Shown: piece by piece, positions 1 through 8,325 of the stretch
How positions within the stretch are numbered: the stretch's first letter is position 1
Layout of the letters: every line of letters starts with the position of its first letter
Assembly (NCBI RefSeq): GCF_009363755.1
Contig: NZ_CP045417.1
Location: 2,232,001-2,296,000 of the forward strand
Source of the DNA: Halomonas sp. THAF5a
Lineage (GTDB): Bacteria; Pseudomonadota; Gammaproteobacteria; Pseudomonadales; Halomonadaceae
DNA length: 64,000 nucleotides
Reading direction: 5' to 3'
Notes under the pieces: model-generated
The model's database searches: none
Told to the model about the DNA's origin: nothing
What the model saw: the letters and a program-made list of their open reading frames with translations, nothing else
Translations under genes and position numbers: made by a program

Positions 1-473
1 CACTGGTGATAGGGCATGCCGGTCGACTCGCCGGTCACCCCCATGTGGCGCTCGGCCTTGACGTAATAGGGCTCGAGTTCCTCATAGGAGATCGGCCAGT
101 CGAGCAGATTGGCGCCAGCGATATCGCCGACCTCGCTGTGCCACTTGAATTCGTGGGGCTGGAAACGCAGCGAGACGCCGGCCCAGTGGATGGTGCTGCC
201 CCCGACCCCCTTGACGATCCAGGCCGGCAGGCCGGGAAAGGTCTCGGTCAGCTGGCGGGGCCCCGCGGTGATTCGCTCGTCGAGCCAGGAGATCTTCTTG
301 AACATCTCCCACTCGTCATTCTCGATATCGTTCATCTGGTAGCGCTTGCCGGCTTCCAGCACCACGCTGTTGATGCCCTTCTTGGCCAGGGCATTGGCCA
401 GGGTGCCCCCCCCGGCACCGGAGCCGATGATCACCACCACGCTGTCGTCGTCATGGTCGAAACGGGTTGCCAT
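1..473 (-). CDS. GMC-family FAD oxidoreductase, N-terminal part (runs off the window)
   Basis: This is the N-terminal part of a glucose-methanol-choline family dehydrogenase; the gene continues beyond base 1. The FAD dinucleotide-binding loop GSGAGGG lies at residues 17-23 and is followed by an acidic residue (E40) that would contact the ribose. A second GMC-like stretch, GGSTIHWAG, is visible near residue 90. It lies 75 bp downstream of a gluconate-2-dehydrogenase subunit-3-like gene, which is the usual arrangement for membrane-bound sugar or alcohol dehydrogenases that feed electrons to a cytochrome c subunit. ATG at 473 was chosen because GAGAGG sits about 9 bp upstream. The substrate cannot be told from this fragment. 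The pair is probably transcribed from the sigma-54 promoter at 1157-1173. Confidence 0.88.
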   Translation of the reverse strand, partial: MATRFDHDDDSVVVIIGSGAGGGTLANALAKKGINSVVLEAGKRYQMNDIENDEWEMFKKISWLDERITAGPRQLTETFPGLPAWIVKGVGGSTIHWAGVSLRFQPHEFKWHSEVGDIAGANLLDWPISYEELEPYYVKAERHMGVTGESTGMPYHQ

Positions 474-548: not shown

Positions 549-1064
549 TTACAGCCAGTCGACGGTCAGGTCATCGAAGCCACGATGCAGGTAGCCGCCC
601 TGCTGCCAGGACGCCCCCTCGTAGCCAAAATGCGGCTCCCAGAGCGCCGGGTTGTCGTAGAGCCCCACCACCAGGGTGCCCCGCACCGTCTGGAAGAAGT
701 CGCCATCCTCGATCTCGCGCAGCAGCGCCGCACGATCGGCCTCTTGCTCGATATCGGCGTAGCGTCGGCCGTGGGCCTCATGGGCCCGGCGATCGAGGTC
801 GGCCAGGCCGTCGGCGATCAGTGCCCGGCGGCTCTCCAGAAGCGGCTCGAGGGGGGTGAGATAGTGGGTGTCTTCGATGGCATCGTGCGGATAGATATCA
901 CGCCCCATGCGTAGCAGGCCGGCGGCCAGATCGGGCTCCGCCTGGGCCCAGCGCGGCCAGAGGCTACCGGTACCGATCGCTACGCCGGCGAGTAGCGCAC
1001 CCTGCCCGGAGAGACTCAGGAAGCGGCGCCGGCTGATTGGCTGCGCCTCGGAGGAATGTGTCAT
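549..1064 (-). CDS. Tat-exported gluconate 2-dehydrogenase subunit 3 family protein
   Basis: This 171-residue protein opens with a twin-arginine signal (SRRRFLSLSG at residues 11-20, hydrophobic stretch to about residue 34, likely cleavage after AQA at 42). The mature part resembles the small (gamma, subunit 3) component of FAD-dependent gluconate/sorbitol-type membrane dehydrogenases, which helps export and assemble the GMC flavoprotein encoded immediately downstream. ATG at 1064 is taken because the twin-arginine motif is then near the N-terminus; the open frame continues upstream without such a signal. The gene follows a sigma-54 type promoter. Family assignment is good; the substrate of the complex is unknown. 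Confidence 0.85.
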   Translation of the reverse strand: MTHSSEAQPISRRRFLSLSGQGALLAGVAIGTGSLWPRWAQAEPDLAAGLLRMGRDIYPHDAIEDTHYLTPLEPLLESRRALIADGLADLDRRAHEAHGRRYADIEQEADRAALLREIEDGDFFQTVRGTLVVGLYDNPALWEPHFGYEGASWQQGGYLHRGFDDLTVDWL

Positions 1065-1156: not shown

Positions 1157-1173
1157 TGGCAGCTTTCGTGCCA
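1157..1173 (-). promoter_or_regulatory. sigma-54 (-24/-12) promoter for the GMC dehydrogenase pair
   Basis: On the minus strand the bases read TGGCACG-AAAG-CTGCCA. The -24 block matches the sigma-54 consensus TGGCACG completely, and the GG and GC pairs are exactly 10 bp apart as this sigma factor requires. The -12 block is CTGC instead of TTGC. Transcription would start near 1147, about 83 bp before the start codon at 1064. An IHF-like site and two palindromes lie upstream in the expected order. Confidence 0.75.
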
Positions 1174-1192
1174 GAAAGCGCCAAAAAAAACA

Positions 1193-1205
1193 CAAGCCAT
1201 TGTTT
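1193..1205 (-). promoter_or_regulatory. IHF-like bending site between enhancer palindromes and sigma-54 promoter
   Basis: The minus strand reads AAACAATGGCTTG, which fits the IHF consensus WATCAANNNNTTR with one mismatch. It lies in an AT-rich patch (about 1180-1230) that stands out from the GC-rich surroundings. A DNA-bending protein here would bring an activator bound at 1273-1320 to the promoter at 1157-1173. Confidence 0.5.
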
Positions 1206-1272
1206 TAAAAGTATTCTTAAAACAGGAGCGGAGGATTTGCCCAGGCGAGGAGCCGCCATGGAGGGAGGGGCA

Positions 1273-1320
1273 TTACACCGCGTGTGACAGTGGCGGTGAC
1301 AGGGAGCGTTACAGGTGTAA
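1273..1320. promoter_or_regulatory. pair of palindromic candidate enhancer sites (UAS)
   Basis: Two inverted repeats occur 36 bp apart: TTACAC-CGC-GTGTGA at 1273-1287 (one mismatch) and TTACA-GG-TGTAA at 1309-1320. They lie about 130-170 bp upstream of the predicted sigma-54 start, a normal distance for an enhancer-binding activator. The second palindrome is the same 12-mer, in the other orientation, as the one at 6204-6215 in front of the sigma-54 activator gene. The rest of this 487-bp intergenic region (1321-1551) shows no gene or clear motif. Confidence 0.6.
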
Positions 1321-1551
1321 TGAGAGCGAGGCAGGCCAACGCAACAGGGCTGACGCCTGAACACACCCTGGCTCTCTTTCAGGCGCCGCGGGCGGCGAGT
1401 GTCGGGGCGCTTTCGAGGAACTCGACACGTGGGGGTCGGGCACACTTTCAACAAGATCAAGAAAGTGATTTCACATCACGCCACCTTATCAACAAACCAT
1501 GCGGCAATTAATCTTCTCGCCATCATTCACAAGCACGAGAGAACCTGCCCC

Positions 1552-1833
1552 ATGAAAACTCGACTGACCCTTGCCGCCCTGTTTGTCGCTCTCCTTCCCC
1601 TGGGTGCCCAGGCCAACGATGCCGCCGAACGCGCGCTGCATCTCAATGAGACCCCCTTGGCACCTGTCCATCACACCTCGCTATCGGCGACTCCCCTCGC
1701 GGAGCCCCTCGAGGCCGGCGGTGATAGCACGGCGATGCAGAAAGCACGCGCCCGCTTGCAGTCGCAAGGCGTCGAGACCCAGTACGCGACGTCGACGGAT
1801 CGGCTCGAGCCGGCCAGGAGTGCCACCAGCTAA
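1552..1833 (+). CDS. small secreted hypothetical protein
   Basis: This codes for a 93-residue protein of no family I recognise. Residues 1-21 form a clear signal peptide with a basic start, a leucine/alanine core and an AQA cleavage site, so the mature protein of about 72 residues should be periplasmic. It is polar, has no cysteine, and has no motif I can name. ATG at 1552 was preferred over upstream in-frame codons because it places the signal peptide at the N-terminus and has a purine-rich GAGAG upstream. It stands alone between the divergent dehydrogenase promoter and the nitroreductase gene. Confidence 0.6.
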   Translation: MKTRLTLAALFVALLPLGAQANDAAERALHLNETPLAPVHHTSLSATPLAEPLEAGGDSTAMQKARARLQSQGVETQYATSTDRLEPARSATS

Positions 1834-2038
1834 GCCTCGAGGCGCTGCCATGAATTCTCAGGATGCCTCGTGCTGGCGGGGCGTCCTTATCCGGCATCCC
1901 AAGGCCATCAAGAGCTGGCTCCTCGCGTGACACGCGCGACAGTTCCAGCCCCCCGCATGCTGTTTATTGCGCTTGACGCTGGCGACAGACATCGCCGTGC
2001 CCCCTTACACCGCCCAGAACATGGAGGATTGATCCGTC

Positions 2039-2695
2039 ATGAACCAACAGATCATTGACGACTTGAACCGTCGGTACACGGCAAAGAAATACGATGCCAC
2101 CAGGAAGATATCGCCAGAGGACATGGAGACGATCAAGGAAGCCCTGCGACTCTCCCCATCCTCTATCAACTCCCAGCCCTGGAAGTTCATCATCATTGAA
2201 AGTGATGAAGCGAAACAGCGATTTCACGCAACCTTTGCTCACCACCACCAGTTCAATCAGCCACATGCCAGGGACGCCTCACATACCATCCTGTTGGCAC
2301 ACGACCCCAGGTTCACGAGGGACAAGTTCCGAAAACGTGTCGATGCCGAAGTGAGCTCAGGCCACCTGCCCGCTGACATGTACGACAACTTCATGGGCGC
2401 ATATGCCTTCGCTGACAGCAATACCGATGAACACGGTAACAACGCGAGCTGGACGAAAGCACAAGTCTATCTGGCACTGGGCAACTTGATGCACACCCTG
2501 GCACGCCTGGACATTGCCTCGACGCCGATGGAGGGGGTCGACCATGAGCTGATCGGCGAACTCTTCAAGGAAGAGCTCGATGGCCATGTCTGTGAGGTCG
2601 CCATCGCTATCGGTTACCACAAAGATGGCGAAGACTGGAACCACAGCCTGCCGAAGGCGCGCCTCCCCATGAGGGAAGTGATGACGGTAGTGTGA
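2039..2695 (+). CDS. NAD(P)H-dependent nitroreductase (NfsB-like)
   Basis: This 218-residue protein belongs to the FMN-dependent nitroreductase family, which reduces nitroaromatics and quinones in the cytoplasm with NAD(P)H. The N-terminal RRYTAKKYD and the following LSPSSINSQPWKF (about residues 37-49) are the FMN phosphate and isoalloxazine contacts typical of NfsB/NfnB. The C-terminal half has the conserved GNLMHTLARLDIASTPMEG helix. Length is normal for the family. A terminator-like hairpin follows at 2711-2740, so it is probably monocistronic. The physiological substrate is unknown. Confidence 0.88.
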   Translation: MNQQIIDDLNRRYTAKKYDATRKISPEDMETIKEALRLSPSSINSQPWKFIIIESDEAKQRFHATFAHHHQFNQPHARDASHTILLAHDPRFTRDKFRKRVDAEVSSGHLPADMYDNFMGAYAFADSNTDEHGNNASWTKAQVYLALGNLMHTLARLDIASTPMEGVDHELIGELFKEELDGHVCEVAIAIGYHKDGEDWNHSLPKARLPMREVMTVV

Positions 2696-2710
2696 TCCAC
2701 CTTCGATCAT

Positions 2711-2740
2711 AAAGCAGGGTGCCCCACCCGGCTTTCTTTC
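2711..2740 (+). terminator. Rho-independent terminator after the nitroreductase gene
   Basis: AAAGC and GCTTT, with GGGTG and CACCC inside them, form a stem around a CCC loop with one A/G mismatch. The stem is followed by CTTTCTTC, a pyrimidine-rich tail. It lies 15 bp after the stop codon. Confidence 0.6.
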
Positions 2741-2872
2741 TTCATTTCCACGTCACGACCTGGATAGAGCCGATCCTCTCAGGAGTCTTCGGCTGCGTCG
2801 TCGTTCTGCATCTCGCCCATCTGGGGCAGGGGAACCGATCGCCCGCAGACGGAGCCGAGCTCCCTGCGAATT

Positions 2873-2919
2873 ATCAACACAATCCATAAAGTGATTGTTG
2901 ATTTCGTCGGCTTATCAAC
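2873..2919. promoter_or_regulatory. three alternating ATCAAC/GTTGAT half sites upstream of the MDR reductase gene
   Basis: ATCAACA at 2873-2879, TGTTGAT at 2896-2902 and ATCAAC at 2914-2919 form two overlapping inverted repeats that share the middle half site. They sit 58-104 bp before the start at 2977, a reasonable place for an operator. The regulator is unknown; none is encoded next to it. Confidence 0.4.
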
Positions 2920-2976
2920 GATACGGACGCCACCTATTCTCTGTCGTGTCATTCACTCCACGAGAGAGCGCGACCC

Positions 2977-3963
2977 ATGAAAGCGATGCTGATCCACGAG
3001 TTTGGTGGTCCCGAGGTCTTCGAGCCCGCCGAGCTGCCCACGCCCCAGGCGGCCCCCGGTCAGGTGCTGGTGCGCGTCGCCGCCACCAGCGTCAACACCG
3101 TCGACACCATGATCCGCCAGATGGGGCCCGAGCTGCCCCTCTCCCCCGCGACACCCGCCCTGCTGGGCATGGACTTCGCCGGCACGGTGGAAGCCGTGGG
3201 AGAAGGCGTCACCGGCTTCACGGTAGGCGACGAGGTGTACGGCTGCGCCGGTGGCCTGGCCGACCTGCCCGGGGCCCTGGCCGAGTACATGGCGGCCGAT
3301 GCCCGCCTCATCGCCCACAAGCCCGTCAGCCTGAGCATGGCGGAGGCCGCGGCGCTGCCGCTGGTTGGCATCACCGCCTATGAGGGGCTGATGCGCGCCG
3401 GCATCGGCCAGGGCAAGACGGTGCTGGTGCACGGGGGCGCAGGCGGCGTGGGCCATGTCGCCGTGCAGCTCGCCCGTCATTTCGGCGGGCGCGTCTCGGC
3501 CACCGTCGGGCGCGATGAGCATCATGCGCTGGTCGAGTCGCTGGGTGCCCGGTCGATCGACTACAGGGCGCAGCCCGTGGCCGACTATGTTGCCGGACAC
3601 ACCGGCGGCGCCGGCTTCGACATCGTCTTCGACTCGGTGGGCGGCGCCAACCTGGCCAACTCCTTCGAGGCCGCGGCGCTGAACGGCCAGGTCGCCACGA
3701 CCGTGTCGATGCTCGAACTGGATCTCAACACCGCGCACTTCAAGGGACTCTCGCTGCACGTGGTGTTCATGCTGATCCCCATGCTGCACGACCACCAGCG
3801 CGAGACCCACGGCCGCATCCTCGGCGAGCTCGCCGCGATCGTCGACGCCGGTGGCCTCAAGCCGCTGCTGGATTCGCCGCTCTACCCGCTGGCTCGGGTC
3901 GGCGAGGCCCATGCCCGCCTCGCCAGCGGCCAGGCGACCGGCAAGGTCGTGGTGGAGATCTGA
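2977..3963 (+). CDS. zinc-independent MDR-family quinone oxidoreductase/enoyl reductase
   Basis: This 328-residue protein is a medium-chain dehydrogenase/reductase. The N-terminal GroES-like part contains the MDR segment VNTVDTMIRQ, and the Rossmann domain carries the NADPH loop HGGAGGVG at about residues 152-159. It lacks the cysteine cluster of the structural zinc loop and the catalytic zinc ligands, as in NADPH:quinone reductases of the QOR type. It reduces quinones or activated double bonds in the cytoplasm. It leads a same-strand run with DUF1330, luciferase-like and SDR genes, which suggests a shared small redox pathway. Substrate not assignable. Confidence 0.85.
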   Translation: MKAMLIHEFGGPEVFEPAELPTPQAAPGQVLVRVAATSVNTVDTMIRQMGPELPLSPATPALLGMDFAGTVEAVGEGVTGFTVGDEVYGCAGGLADLPGALAEYMAADARLIAHKPVSLSMAEAAALPLVGITAYEGLMRAGIGQGKTVLVHGGAGGVGHVAVQLARHFGGRVSATVGRDEHHALVESLGARSIDYRAQPVADYVAGHTGGAGFDIVFDSVGGANLANSFEAAALNGQVATTVSMLELDLNTAHFKGLSLHVVFMLIPMLHDHQRETHGRILGELAAIVDAGGLKPLLDSPLYPLARVGEAHARLASGQATGKVVVEI

Positions 3964-3990
3964 GTCGCCACCTGTCGAGGAGAGACATCG

Positions 3991-4293
3991 ATGACCTATT
4001 ACTCCGTCTTGGACGTCACGCCCACCCGCGAAGAGTGGATGGCGACCTACATCGAGCCGGTCAACCGACTGGTGGCCAAGCACGGGGGCCAGTACCTCGC
4101 CCGGACCGCCAGCCATGAACGCCTCGAGGGGCAAGGCGAGAACGCCGCCCTGCGCGTCATCATCGAGTGGCCCTCGAGGAACGCCGCCGAGGCCTTCATG
4201 AGCGACCCGGACTATGCGCCCCACCTCGAGGCCCGAACCGCCGGCTCGATCAGCCACCATTACCTCATCGAAGGCAAGGACGACCAGGCCTGA
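3991..4293 (+). CDS. DUF1330 family protein
   Basis: This is a 100-residue single-domain protein of the DUF1330 type, a ferredoxin-like dimeric alpha-beta barrel fold. Visible family traits are the central IIEWPS stretch and the following AAEAFMSDPDYAPH, which correspond to the conserved W-P-s and F-x-s-d-Y-x-p elements. The start at 3991 has GAGGAGAG 6 bp upstream. It is 27 bp after the MDR gene and 84 bp before the luciferase-like gene. Members are uncharacterised; a role in handling a small substrate beside the neighbouring oxidoreductases is only inferred. Confidence 0.8.
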   Translation: MTYYSVLDVTPTREEWMATYIEPVNRLVAKHGGQYLARTASHERLEGQGENAALRVIIEWPSRNAAEAFMSDPDYAPHLEARTAGSISHHYLIEGKDDQA

Positions 4294-4377
4294 GCCCCCC
4301 GGCACGTCCTGCGGATCGCGGGACGTGCCGTCGAGGCAACATCGCCCCACCCCGACCGACCATAAGGGAAGTTGACC

Positions 4378-5364
4378 ATGCTCACGCCCATCGATGACGC
4401 CGGATTTCCCTCCATCAATCGCGGCTACCAACGGGTATTCCGCCCGAATCGCTTGAGCCTCGGGCTGGTGGTGCCCTTGGAGCGCTACCCCACCGGTCCC
4501 GTGCCGACCATGCACGACCAGGCGACGCGGATCCAGCTGGCCGAGACGCTCGGCTTCGGTGCCGTCTGGCTGCGCGATGTGCCGTTCAACGTGCCCTCCT
4601 TCGGCGACGCCGGTCAGGTGCACGATCCCTTCGTCTATCTGGGCCTGTTGGCCGGACAGACCACGCGCATCGCCTTGGGCGTGGCCAGTATCGTGCTGCC
4701 CCTGCGCCACCCCGCGCATGTGGCCAAGGCCGCGGCCAGCGTCGATGCGCTCTCGGGCGGGCGCCTGCTGCTGGGCGTCGCCTCGGGCGACAGGCCCGAG
4801 GAGTACCCCGCGCTCAACCACGCCTTCTCGGAGCGCGGGGCCAGCTTCCGCGAGAGCTTCGCCTATATCCAGCGCATGTGGGAGGACTCGCCGGCCTTCG
4901 ACAATCGCCACGGGCGCCTCGAGGGCACCATGGACATGCTGCCGAAACCGGCATCGGGCCGGCTGCCGCTGATCGTGACGGGCGGCAGCCAGCAGAGCCC
5001 GGAGTGGATCGCCGGCCATGGCGATGGCTGGATGCTCTATCCGCGAGCGCTCGAGACACAGGCGCGCATCCTAGACGACTGGCGCGCTCGCACTCGGGCG
5101 CTGGGCAGGGGCGTGCGACCGGCGATGCAACCGCTCTACATCGACCTGAACCCCGATCCTGATGCGGCCCCCGAGCCGATCCACCTCGGGCTGCGCGTTG
5201 GCGTACGCGCCCTTCGCCACTACCTGGAGACGCTCGAGGCCATCGGGGTCAACCACGTCGCACTGAACCTGCGCTTCAACCAGGCGGATATCGACGACAC
5301 CCTCTATCGTCTTGCCGACGATATCCTGCCCGCCTTTTCCCCCCAAGGAGAGACACGACCGTGA
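4378..5364 (+). CDS. luciferase-like (LLM class) flavin monooxygenase
   Basis: This codes for a 328-residue TIM-barrel oxidoreductase of the bacterial luciferase superfamily, using FMN or F420-type flavin. It has the LLM features LGFGAVWLRDVPF (N-terminal strand and helix), the SIVLPLRHPAHVAKAAASVD stretch, and SGGRLLLGVASGD, which contacts flavin phosphate. It resembles the BA3436-type subgroup. ATG at 4378 was chosen because AAGGGAAG lies 7 bp upstream; an in-frame TTG six bases earlier overlaps that site less well. Its stop overlaps the GTG of the following SDR gene, so the two are translationally coupled. Substrate unknown. Confidence 0.83.
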   Translation: MLTPIDDAGFPSINRGYQRVFRPNRLSLGLVVPLERYPTGPVPTMHDQATRIQLAETLGFGAVWLRDVPFNVPSFGDAGQVHDPFVYLGLLAGQTTRIALGVASIVLPLRHPAHVAKAAASVDALSGGRLLLGVASGDRPEEYPALNHAFSERGASFRESFAYIQRMWEDSPAFDNRHGRLEGTMDMLPKPASGRLPLIVTGGSQQSPEWIAGHGDGWMLYPRALETQARILDDWRARTRALGRGVRPAMQPLYIDLNPDPDAAPEPIHLGLRVGVRALRHYLETLEAIGVNHVALNLRFNQADIDDTLYRLADDILPAFSPQGETRP

Positions 5365-6185
5365 AGACCATTCTCATGACGGGATCGACCGATGGCATCG
5401 GCCTGGCCACGGCCGAGAGGCTCGTCCGACAGGGCCACCGGGTGCTGATCCACGGCCGGAACCCCGAGAAGCTTCAAGCCACGCAGGCGCGCCTGTCCGC
5501 CGCGACGGAACGCCCGAACGTGGAGGGCCACGTGGCGGATCTTTCACGCCTGGCGGACGTCGAGGACCTGGCAGAGGCGGTCGCGAGTCGACACGCAAGG
5601 CTCGATGTCCTGATTAACAATGCCGGGGTCTTCCGGGTTCCCGATCCCCTCACGGACGATGGGCTCGATGTGCGCTTCGCCGTCAACACCATCGCCCCCT
5701 ATCTGCTGACCCGACGGCTGCTGCCGCTGATGGCAGCGGGCGCGAGAGTGATCAACCTCTCCTCCGCCGCCCAGGCCCCGGTGGACATCGACGCCCTCGC
5801 CGGCCGGGGACGGCTGGACGATGAGTTCTCCGCCTACGCACAGAGCAAGCTGGCCCTCACCATGTGGTCGCGCCACCTGGCCATGACGCTGAACGACCGG
5901 GCCCCGGCCATCATCGCCGTCAACCCAGGCTCCCTGCTCGGCAGCAAGATGGTGAAAGAGGGGTTCGGCGTGGCCGGCAATGATCTCCAGATCGGCGTCG
6001 ATATCCTGAACCGAGCGGCCCTGGACGACGCCTTCGCCCACGCCACCGGGCAGTACTTCGACAACGACGCCAAGCGCTTCGCGTCCCCCCACGCCGATGC
6101 ACTGGAGGCGGCGAAGTGCGAGCGCGTGGTGCGGGTCATCGAGGACGTGCTGGCGAGGCTTGGCACCCCGGCGACAGGGCCGTGA
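5361..6185 (+). CDS. short-chain dehydrogenase/reductase (SDR)
   Basis: This 274-residue classical-fold SDR has the cofactor loop TGSTDGIG at residues 7-14, NNAG near 86-89, catalytic serine at about 134-135 and the YAQSK active site with Tyr159 and Lys163. The missing acidic residue after strand 2, replaced by HGRN, suggests NADP(H). The start is GTG, overlapping the stop of the luciferase-like gene by 4 bp, which implies coupled translation. It ends the redox run 2977-6185. A large palindrome begins 7 bp after the stop. Substrate unknown. Confidence 0.87.
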   Translation: MKTILMTGSTDGIGLATAERLVRQGHRVLIHGRNPEKLQATQARLSAATERPNVEGHVADLSRLADVEDLAEAVASRHARLDVLINNAGVFRVPDPLTDDGLDVRFAVNTIAPYLLTRRLLPLMAAGARVINLSSAAQAPVDIDALAGRGRLDDEFSAYAQSKLALTMWSRHLAMTLNDRAPAIIAVNPGSLLGSKMVKEGFGVAGNDLQIGVDILNRAALDDAFAHATGQYFDNDAKRFASPHADALEAAKCERVVRVIEDVLARLGTPATGP

Positions 6186-6192
6186 CACCCGG

Positions 6193-6226
6193 CGTCGCCC
6201 CCTTTACACCTGTAACGGGGGCGACG
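6193..6226. promoter_or_regulatory. nested 34-bp palindrome containing the TTACACCTGTAA site
   Basis: Outer arms CGTCGCCCCC (6193-6202) and GGGGGCGACG (6217-6226) are perfectly complementary. They enclose TTACA-CC-TGTAA (6204-6215) with the same centre. The inner 12-mer is identical to the palindrome at 1309-1320 in the dehydrogenase control region. No T-run follows, so a terminator is less likely than an operator, although the outer arms could also stop transcription of the SDR gene. It lies 91 bp before the activator gene. Confidence 0.6.
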
Positions 6227-6316
6227 AAGGTCGTATCTCGCGGTAATGGCGGAGCTCGTAACTTGAAGGAAGCATAACGACAACACCATGACGCGCCCGT
6301 TCGCCGGCGCAAGGCC

Positions 6317-8325
6317 ATGACCATGAGCAACGTCCCATCCCCGCGCACGCCGTCACCGCGAGAACATGTCGAGGCCATCCTGCGCTCCCTCGACCACCCC
6401 GACGCTGGCGACAATGCCGTGATCGAGCGCTCCTGGCGCCGCTGCATCGACCGCTACGGCCTCGACCCCAACGCGCCCCGTCCCCCCGCTACGTCCCCGA
6501 CCGCACCCTGCGCGAGCACCAGGACCAGGCCGACGCCCTGATCCAGGTGGCCCGAGCCGGGGTGGAACAGCTCTATCGTCAGGTGCGGCCGCTGGACTAT
6601 GTGGTGTTGCTCGCCGATGCCCGAGGCATCGCCGTGCAGTTTCTCGGGGAGCGCGGCGCCCAACGCGAGCACCAGCGCACCGGCCTCTACCTGGGGGCCG
6701 ACTACAGCGAGGCGTACGCCGGCACCAGCGCGGTGGGGACCTGCATCCACGAGCAGACCCCGTTGACGTGTCACCACCGCGATCACTTCAACACCCACCA
6801 CATCGCCCTGACCTGCACCGCGGCGCCGATTTTCGACCCCGATGGCCAGCTGCTCGCGGTGCTCGACATCTCCGCCTACCAGTCGCCGGAGACCAAGGCC
6901 TCCCAGACGTTCGCCCTGCAGGTCGTCAAGCACTATGCGCGGATGATCGAGGACGCCTATTTCCTGCAGCGCTACAGCGGCCACCACATCGTCTGCCTGG
7001 ATCGTTCACGGGAGTTCGTGCAGATCAACCGCCGCTACCTGCTCGCCATCGACGAGGACGGCACGCTGGTGGCCGCCAACACCGCCGGGCGCAAGCTGCT
7101 GCGTCACCATGAACTGCCCCTGGCCGGCCCCGGCGAGGCCCGCCCCTTCCGGGCCTGGAACATCCAGGACCTGCTCGACGCCGAGATCAATGAGGTCCTC
7201 GACATCCAGCGCCACAGTGACGACGGCGTGCGCGCCTTCCGCACCCACCGCCACCACGAGCTGCACTTCGGCACCCTGATCGAGCCCCAGCGCCGCCGTG
7301 CGCCCCAGGGCGAACCGCGCCGCCAGGACTCCAGCCTGGCACCGCTGGAGACGCTGGCCGACGACGACCCGGCGATGCGCGACACCCTGACCCGGGCCGC
7401 CCGGCTGCGCAACGAGCCGATCAACATCCTGGTGATGGGCGAGACCGGCACCGGCAAGGAGCGCATGGCGCGCGCCCTGCACGAGTCCAGCCGGCGCCGC
7501 GACAAGCCCTTCGTGGCCATCAACTGCGCGGCCATGCCCGAGTCGCTGATCGAAAGCGAGCTGTTCGGCTACGAGCCGGGCAGCTTCACGGGCGCCAAGA
7601 GCAAGGGGATGAAGGGGCTGATCGCCCAGGCCGACGGCGGCACCCTCTTCCTCGACGAGATCGGCGACATGCCGCTGCAGCTGCAGACCCGGCTGCTGCG
7701 CGTGCTGGCCGAGCAGGAGGTGCTGCCCATCGGCGCCAGCCGGCCGGTGAAGGTCGACCTGCGGGTGGTGGCGGCCACCCACCGTGACCTGCGCGGCCTG
7801 ATCGATCAGGGCCGCTTCCGCGAGGATCTCTTCTATCGACTGAACGGCGCCAGCCTGCGCCTGCCGCCGCTGCGTGAGCGGGCCGACCAGGGCTACCTGA
7901 TCCGGCGACTGTTCGACGAGCTGCAGGCCGAGCGCGAAGGGCCACGGGCGCGGCTGCGCGGCGATGCCATGAGCGCCCTGCTCGCCTACCCCTGGCCGGG
8001 CAACATCCGCGAACTGCACAACGCCCTGCGCTATGCCCTGGCGACCTGCGAGAACGATGAGGTGGTGGTCGGCGACCTGCCGGAGGAGTGCCTCAGTGGG
8101 CACTACGCCTACCCGGCTGTCCCGTCACACGACGCGACGGCCGGCGGACGCATCGCTGGCCACCCGGCAGTCACACGCCCCATGGATCCCCTCCACGAGG
8201 CCTTGCGTCGCCGGCGCTGGAACATCAGCGCCGTGGCTCGCGAGCTCGGCCTCTCACGGCCGACCATCTACCGGCGAATGAAGCGCCTCGGGATCACTCC
8301 CCCTCACCAGCATGACGCCTCGTGA
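6317..8325 (+). pseudogene. AcoR-type sigma-54 dependent activator, disrupted by a one-base frameshift
   Basis: The two parts 6317-6541 and 6547-8325 together encode an activator of about 669 residues. In the first frame the text reads SWRRCIDRYGLDPNAPRPP and then degenerates. The next frame contains RYVPDRTLREHQDQADAL and continues into the second part. Adding one C to the C6 tract at 6482-6487 joins them exactly. The second part has a GAF-like sensor region, a PAS-like segment, an AAA+ domain with Walker A GETGTGKE (residues 298-305 counted from 6547), GSFTGA (345-350) where GAFTGA is usual, Walker B LFLDEIGD (367-374) and a Fis-type helix-turn-helix at 559-581. AcoR relatives activate alcohol, acetoin or aldehyde dehydrogenase genes. 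The break may be real or a sequencing error. Confidence 0.85.

Follow-up and report, generated by a model that had tools for sequence, protein, structure and literature searches.

Sigma-54-dependent acetoin systems of the AcoR-acoABCL type are found in Bacillus, Pseudomonas and Ralstonia as well as in Clostridium. In the clostridial system, as set out in the accessible sections of PMC6615313, an AcoR-type protein with a Fis-type helix-turn-helix acts with a sigma-54 promoter on E1/E2 targets; the same sections place most sites 100-250 bp upstream of the promoter and record multiple sites in 32 of 39 regulator groups, so that multiple sites are ordinary. A related arrangement is that of BmoR and P_BMO, where an alcohol-responsive enhancer-binding protein, an upstream dyad, an IHF-like element and a sigma-54 promoter (that of butane monooxygenase) occur together, and where the dyad can be removed without loss of induction (PMC8899819, accessible sections). 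Promoters activated by CrbR, of the CrbS/R (MxtR/ErdR) system, carry the ACTU motif, an imperfect inverted repeat of 17 bp that immediately precedes an RpoD promoter (PMC5715377, accessible sections).

The locus described here lies at the start of a window (the whole stretch analysed, 64,000 nucleotides) of the Halomonas sp. THAF5a genome. It shares with AcoR-acoABCL the AcoR-type protein with its Fis-type domain, the sigma-54 promoter and the E1/E2 targets; different from that system, a fructose-dehydrogenase-like GMC pair heads the operon and a lipoate-ligase-like gene closes it, a protein of its own, 78 aa long, stands in for the lipoyl domain, and the activator's putative site reads TTACA-N2-TGTAA, accompanied by half-sites in 12-bp phase. 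With BmoR and P_BMO it shares an enhancer-binding protein (here putatively alcohol-responsive), an upstream dyad and a sigma-54 promoter, with a statistically weak IHF-like sequence as well; its 12-bp array has no counterpart in the accessible sections of PMC8899819. As in ACTU promoters, an element stands just before a promoter, here 22 bp ahead of a -10-like box; unlike in those, it precedes an activator gene, beside that activator's palindrome, and the CrbR input is putative. As in fructose dehydrogenase and FAD-glucose dehydrogenase complexes, a GMC large-subunit sequence adjoins a small-subunit gene, but no cytochrome subunit is found among the operon genes identified and 2-oxo-acid-dehydrogenase-type genes follow. 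Judged from its sequence, this is a real, conserved sigma-54 control region of known kind, whose new features are the array, the GMC-led acetoin-type operon, the CrbR-type element and the split arrangement. Among the papers listed, literature searches, which left the subscription literature largely uncovered and are no proof of absence, found none on this type of locus or on this halophile branch of AcoR-type activators.

The control region upstream of gmcS

The gene gmcS (549-1064, minus strand) encodes a GMC dehydrogenase small subunit of the gluconate 2-dehydrogenase subunit 3 family (PF13618, 24.0 bits, just above the cut-off of 23.4), with a twin-arginine motif, SRRRFL, recognized by eye. 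Upstream of it, the initial annotation had described a minus-strand -24/-12 element with an exact TGGCACG and GG-N10-GC spacing, and this is what is found: TGGCACGAAAGCTGCC at 1173-1158, with GG at 1172-1171 and GC at 1160-1159, has the TGGCAC- and TTGC-like boxes of a sigma-54 promoter, and its position predicts a transcript start near 1147, about 83 bases ahead of the start codon at 1064. The element agrees with the consensus at 10 of 12 positions, a score reached by 6 of 1000 mononucleotide shuffles of a 248-base segment. The string TGGCACG-N5-TGC is not rare alone, occurring 17 times in the genome against 10 for a reversed control, and twice in the window (a count reached by 5 of 100 shuffles). 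The weight of the pattern comes from its conservation: a GG-N10-GC element scoring 8-11 of 12 precedes gmcS in the window and in all 23 relatives. At one of these loci (L047) the best-scoring element is off the usual place, and an equally scoring weak one lies at the usual place. The window genome has an rpoN gene.

Between promoter and array, an IHF-like sequence, AAACAATGGCTTG (1206-1194, minus strand), differs from WATCAANNNNTTR by one mismatch. The IHF-like sequence noted earlier is present, but it is statistically weak alone, being equalled or bettered in 77 of 2000 mononucleotide shuffles; the 23 relatives show 0-3 mismatches to WATCAANNNNTTR, and AAACAATCCCTTG is found again at this genome's VOC promoter (see below).

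Farther upstream, T[TG]ACA half-sites lie at 1273, 1285, 1297 and 1309 (1273-1320, plus strand), in steps of exactly 12 bp and in one shared orientation. An inverted partner is present at the last alone, forming the perfect palindrome TTACAGGTGTAA (1309-1320) that closes the array. Palindrome and half-sites together span 126-173 bp ahead of the predicted start site. Two palindromes had been proposed here, and the perfect one stands; the imperfect one (1273-1287), considered as a separate operator, was rejected, as its dyad is not conserved by eye in aligned relatives, and is replaced by its reading as the edge of the four-half-site array. The array was compared in 24 loci, namely the window and 23 relatives with a class-1 activator (19 from the genus and four from the family, L071-L074; the classes are defined below). 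Half-sites occur exactly at offset 12 in 12 loci (16 if one base may differ), at offset 24 in 17 (22) and at offset 36 in 12 (17). All three offsets are exact in 10 of the 24 loci, two in 2, one in 7 and none in 5: the array is not universal. Of 20000 dinucleotide shuffles of the window's 100 upstream bases, not one reproduced even two of the three offsets. When the period could take any value from 8 to 21, a match to two offsets turned up in 3 of 20000 shuffles and a match to all three in none. Nowhere else in the genome do three half-sites occur in 12-bp phase.

The palindrome recurs, reversed, before the AcoR-type activator gene, as had been claimed: TTACACCTGTAA (6204-6215) is the reverse complement of TTACAGGTGTAA (1309-1320). 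With up to two mismatches the 12-mer has four matches in the window (two sites, each on both strands) against 0.29 expected, and none of 100 shuffles reached four.

The split locus and the activator gene

In the 23 class-1 relatives, gmcS and the activator gene are divergent neighbours with one palindrome between them, and 496-603 bp separate the gmcS start from the codon matching position 6547 of the window. The separation of about 5 kb in the window is due to an insertion, unseen in the 23 relatives compared: some 4.9 kb of DNA (1321-6193), absent from this place in all of them, flanked by a palindrome on each side and carrying genes for a nitroreductase (2039-2695), a quinone-oxidoreductase-like protein (2977-3963), a DUF1330 protein (3991-4293), a luciferase-like protein (4372-5364) and a short-chain dehydrogenase (5361-6185). 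Another genome (G059) has, next to its class-2 activator, a block whose DNA shows 93-95% identity to the segments 2874-3977 and 4891-6142; the luciferase-like gene is only partly present in it. By eye, 1440-1557, ahead of a reading frame near 1550, resembles the promoter region of the oxidoreductase block (2874-2976; common TCAACA...AAAGTGATT...TTATCAAC), and a sequence match of 70% links it to that promoter region in G059; the two stretches are perhaps operators of a separate regulator. At the insertion junction, again by eye, the activator-side palindrome lies inside a 32-bp inverted repeat with one mismatch (6194-6225, GTCGCCCCC...GGGGGCGAC). The two copies of the palindrome could represent a target-site duplication, a split five-repeat array, or inverted copying at the dyad.

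The activator gene (6317-8325, plus strand; likely start codon at 6317, main frame 6547-8325) has the domains of an AcoR-type sigma-54 activator, AAA+ (PF00158, 5e-67) and a Fis-type helix-turn-helix (PF02954, 1.4e-10), and GSFTGA is present in its translation by eye. In this assembly the frame is broken in a C-rich stretch near 6478-6487: the N-terminal part is read in one frame from 6317 and the remainder in another from 6547, with a net difference of one base. From its upstream stop at 6289 as far as 6547, the main frame offers no start codon, and all 23 relatives have an in-frame ATG 180-290 nt upstream of the codon matching 6547, with no stop in between. One-base breaks in runs of C are common assembly errors. 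The break is either such an error or a real loss, and in the latter case the regulon may be off in this strain.

The initial annotation suggested that the activator also controls its own gene. A sigma-54 route for this is unsupported: between palindrome and activator, no convincing -24/-12 element with GG-N10-GC is found in the window and the 23 relatives (best match 7 of 12, nothing at all in 12 of the 24), and sigma-54 self-activation was rejected on these scores. What is found instead is an ACTU-like element of CrbR type, GGCGACGAAGGTCGTAT (6220-6236, plus strand), and 22 bp after it a -10-like box, TAACTT (6259-6264, plus strand). In all of the 24 loci but L064, the sequence AC[CG]AAGGTCGNAT comes 8-10 bp after the palindrome, and each of these 23 has TA[AC]CTT at exactly the 22-bp spacing; compared by eye with the sequences in PMC5715377, they present an ACTU-like repeat just upstream of an RpoD-type promoter. 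Box and motif together suggest that the activator gene is probably transcribed by sigma-70 polymerase, perhaps under CrbS/R control. The palindrome on this side may still serve feedback, not via sigma-54 but as a repressor site or roadblock. Used as a genome-wide marker, CGACNAAGGNCGNAT has one other match, near the end of a methyltransferase-like gene; a wider ACTU search of the window genome gave three matches, too few for a conclusion, one of them the methyltransferase-like place and another an ACTU-like sequence, ACCAAGGTCCAAT (L187:1501-1513), upstream of a CoA-transferase-like gene.

Distribution of the site and its putative target genes

The 3.81-Mb genome contains four sites of the form TTACANNTGTAA, and only those at 1309-1320 and 6204-6215 have a GG/CC centre; the other two (L001, L004) belong to AT-rich stretches, where they fall inside reading frames, in unrelated coding sequence. 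The degenerate form T[TG]ACANNTGT[AC]A, that is T[TG]ACA-N2-TGT[AC]A, occurs at five places, three of them in this locus, and two of the five have a sigma-54 element downstream, at 136 bp (gmcS) and at 108 bp (a VOC-family gene). Put the other way, 2 of the 17 TGGCACG-N5-TGC matches lie less than 200 bp from the five degenerate sites, where 0.009 would be expected by a calculation made post hoc. The genome-wide search proposed with the initial annotation, in which random scatter of the 12-mer with no tie to sigma-54 promoters would have refuted the claim, thus leaves the claim in place.

Across 90 genomes of the genus, TTACANNTGTAA occurs in 48, at 62 sites, of which 40 have the GG/CC centre. 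Outside the window genome, the surroundings of all 38 GG/CC sites and 18 of the 20 others were retrieved; those in G038 and G055 were left out, and an activator search of the 90 genomes places no activator at them. For 36 of the 38 GG/CC sites, an activator relative follows, its first matched codon 308-427 bp away, and the remaining two (L039 and L063) have no activator in the fetched stretch. These two palindromes (genomes G011 and G075) adjoin long repetitive reading frames. Another 5 of the 18 non-GG/CC sites also precede an activator, so that in the 89 other genomes 41 of 58 palindromes stand some 300-430 bp ahead of an activator's first matched codon. Conversely, the activator family has 50 matches in 47 of the 90 genomes, and falls into class 1 (21 of 50, the window's included; 76-100% identical over a 258-aa query) and class 2 (29 of 50; 49-54% identical, or 50-58% over a longer query). 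A perfect palindrome lies upstream of 42 of the 50 genes, the window's included, and only the degenerate form upstream of four more (L175, L177, L179, L180); the stretch fetched for the last four (L174, L176, L178, L181) has no site, even degenerate. On this sequence comparison, motif and activator travel together.

In the helix-turn-helix, the recognition-helix residues SRPT[IV]YR occur in 57 loci with an activator match (a count in which some genomes are represented twice, such as L099 and L175). An upstream site, perfect or degenerate, accompanies 53 of the 57; the four that have none are the siteless L174, L176, L178 and L181. Among more distant AcoR relatives (at least 80 loci, of which 50, L094-L143, were scanned), helix and exact site coincide, both occurring only in L094, L095, L096 and L099; the other 46 have neither, some of them being cut before the helix. 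This agreement could come from common descent alone, the carriers forming one clade. In one of the scanned loci, L097 from an Azoarcus MAG, genes related to gmcS (45%) and to gmcL (63%) neighbour a relative of the activator (50%), which has no exact palindrome upstream; the pairing of gmcS and gmcL with the activator reaches beyond the halophiles.

Two further targets have the same signals. About 5.8 kb to the left of the window, TGACACCTGTCA (genome 2226211-2226222) lies 108 bp upstream of a second sigma-54 promoter, TGGCACGAGGCTTGCT, before the VOC-family gene (region L093:4130-4402, genome 2226131-2226402). This gene, whose product is apparently exported, is present in 12 of the fetched stretches of 20 relatives and absent in 8; in the 13 genomes that have it, the window's included, a sigma-54 element is found in 13 and a perfect site in 11. 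In class 2, a flavin monooxygenase-like gene occurs in 27 of 29 loci, and all 22 palindrome-bearing loci, where the gene lies beside the activator paralogue of 54-58% identity, have a sigma-54 element (9-11 of 12) before it with the palindrome upstream. Three unrelated targets (gmcS, VOC and flavin monooxygenase-like) thus have, by sequence, one motif and one promoter type.

The activator had been proposed to control a GMC dehydrogenase pair; the tie by a shared palindrome holds and is conserved in relatives, but the target is an operon of seven genes, not a pair. Leftward from the promoter these are gmcS, gmcL, E1 alpha, E1 beta, a lipoyl-like gene, E2 and a lipoate-ligase-like gene. Only the start of gmcL, a GMC oxidoreductase gene on the minus strand, lies in the window (1-473; in full L093:8893-10473), and the nearest solved relatives of its product in the PDB are fructose dehydrogenase large subunits. 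Pfam models match E1 alpha, E1 beta and E2 (a catalytic domain only, without a lipoyl domain), which correspond to the parts of an acetoin dehydrogenase complex (TPP E1 alpha and beta, E2, lipoyl domain) together with the 78-aa protein, recognized as resembling a free lipoyl domain by eye and not by a library. For E1 alpha, the matches to pyruvate dehydrogenase models stay under the cut-offs of those models, and there was no hit to any acetoin-specific model. In relatives these acetoin-type genes stand beside the activator, as the divergent operon; in the window the operon is 5 kb away. Matches to gmcS are found in 28 of 151 family genomes, its own included, with at least 60% identity in 8. 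In 24 class-1 relatives (the 23 above and L174), gmcL, E1 alpha, E1 beta and the lipoyl-like gene are always present (in L069, E1 alpha is matched over only 170 of 328 residues), E2 is found in 23 and the ligase in 21, and where one is missed (L076, L078, L174) the fetched stretch comes to its end. Between E1 alpha and E1 beta, 11 of the 24 have a zinc dehydrogenase; in 3 more this gene stands at the stretch edge, and 10 lack it. Two kinds of it occur, one with 87-100% and the other with 43-46% identity to the protein of L042. One of each kind was compared with solved structures, and both matched (R,R)-butanediol dehydrogenase 6ie0 best (E of 1.4e-133 for L042 and 5.6e-82 for L073); no butanediol model of NCBIfam matched either. 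No such gene is found in the 12-kb operon stretch (L093) of the window genome. The butanediol-dehydrogenase-like gene and the AcoR-type regulator suggest the use of butanediol or acetoin, and the most likely substrate of the operon is a vicinal diol or alpha-hydroxyketone (2,3-butanediol, acetoin), which it would oxidise to acetyl-CoA.

Proposed mechanism and alternative explanations

We propose a small sigma-54 regulon in which the AcoR-type activator acts on T[TG]ACA-N2-TGT[AC]A to control a diol/acetoin operon, and give this reading as a whole a probability of roughly 0.8; the sites, the promoter elements, the gene order and their conservation come from sequence and comparison. The enhancer-binding protein encoded at 6317-8325, answering to a presumed inducer, would bind T[TG]ACA-N2-TGT[AC]A; upstream of gmcS it would meet the perfect palindrome and three same-orientation half-sites at 12-bp steps, and bending of the DNA, perhaps by IHF, would bring it to sigma-54 polymerase at 1158-1173. 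Transcription would then run leftward through gmcS-gmcL-E1alpha-E1beta-lipoyl-E2-ligase as a putative single unit, the second sigma-54 promoter with the same site would drive the VOC-family gene outside the window, and the activator gene itself would be read from its sigma-70-type promoter with the CrbR-type element. A bolder version joins two further ideas: a head-to-tail polymer, in which a dimer seeds on the palindrome and subunits dock on the same-facing half-sites, rather than separate inverted-repeat dimers; and a two-tier cascade, in which a CrbS/R-type acetate sensor sets the level of an activator that in turn governs a diol route via the fructose-dehydrogenase-like GMC enzyme, possibly exported, and the exported VOC protein. 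Taken jointly these are speculative, and we would not expect both to hold.

One alternative concerns the substrate. Among PDB entries, those nearest to the GMC large subunit are fructose and glucose dehydrogenases, and E1/E2 match pyruvate and oxoglutarate dehydrogenase models, so that the activator might bind as proposed while the operon serves a sugar, a sugar alcohol or another 2-oxo acid; this is a serious possibility, short of an even chance, against which stand the AcoR-type regulator, the butanediol-dehydrogenase-like gene inside the operon of 11 of 24 relatives, and the AcoR relatives L100-L104, L108 and L138, which also adjoin E1-type genes. A decaying locus, with its divergent promoter split by the insertion, its activator frame broken and its sites left as relics, is somewhat improbable: the insertion is not found in 23 relatives and the frame break fits, but the -24/-12 element, the array and both palindromes are intact, and the break in the C run is possibly an assembly error.

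The palindrome might also belong to another regulator acting at both promoters, of GntR, TetR or Crp type for example, with the AcoR-type protein working elsewhere. TTACA-N2-TGTAA is a plain short dyad and a putative site only, its activator-side copy lies 8-10 bp from the CrbR-type element, where other regulators could act, and four activator genes with the same helix have no site. Yet the site goes with two activator lineages that are paralogous and differ in their target genes, and across the 50 broader loci it coincides with the recognition helix. At the targets it stands where an enhancer would, upstream of sigma-54 elements. All of this makes another regulator unlikely. As for chance similarity, a -24/-12-like string beside an accidental 12-mer, the 17 genomic occurrences of the string against 10 in the reversed control and the weak IHF match would fit, but the arrangement is conserved in 24 loci and turns up again at two further targets, which in our judgement refutes such a chance origin, and we regard it as hardly credible.

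The regulon as proposed would offer a testable DNA code (palindrome, recognition helix and three kinds of target) for a halophile branch of AcoR-type activators, and possibly a new inducible promoter. The regular spacing of the half-sites, at 12 bp, is relevant to the assembly of sigma-54 activators on DNA. The window genome also offers a natural experiment: its divergent promoter has been split, with a copy of the operator on each half.
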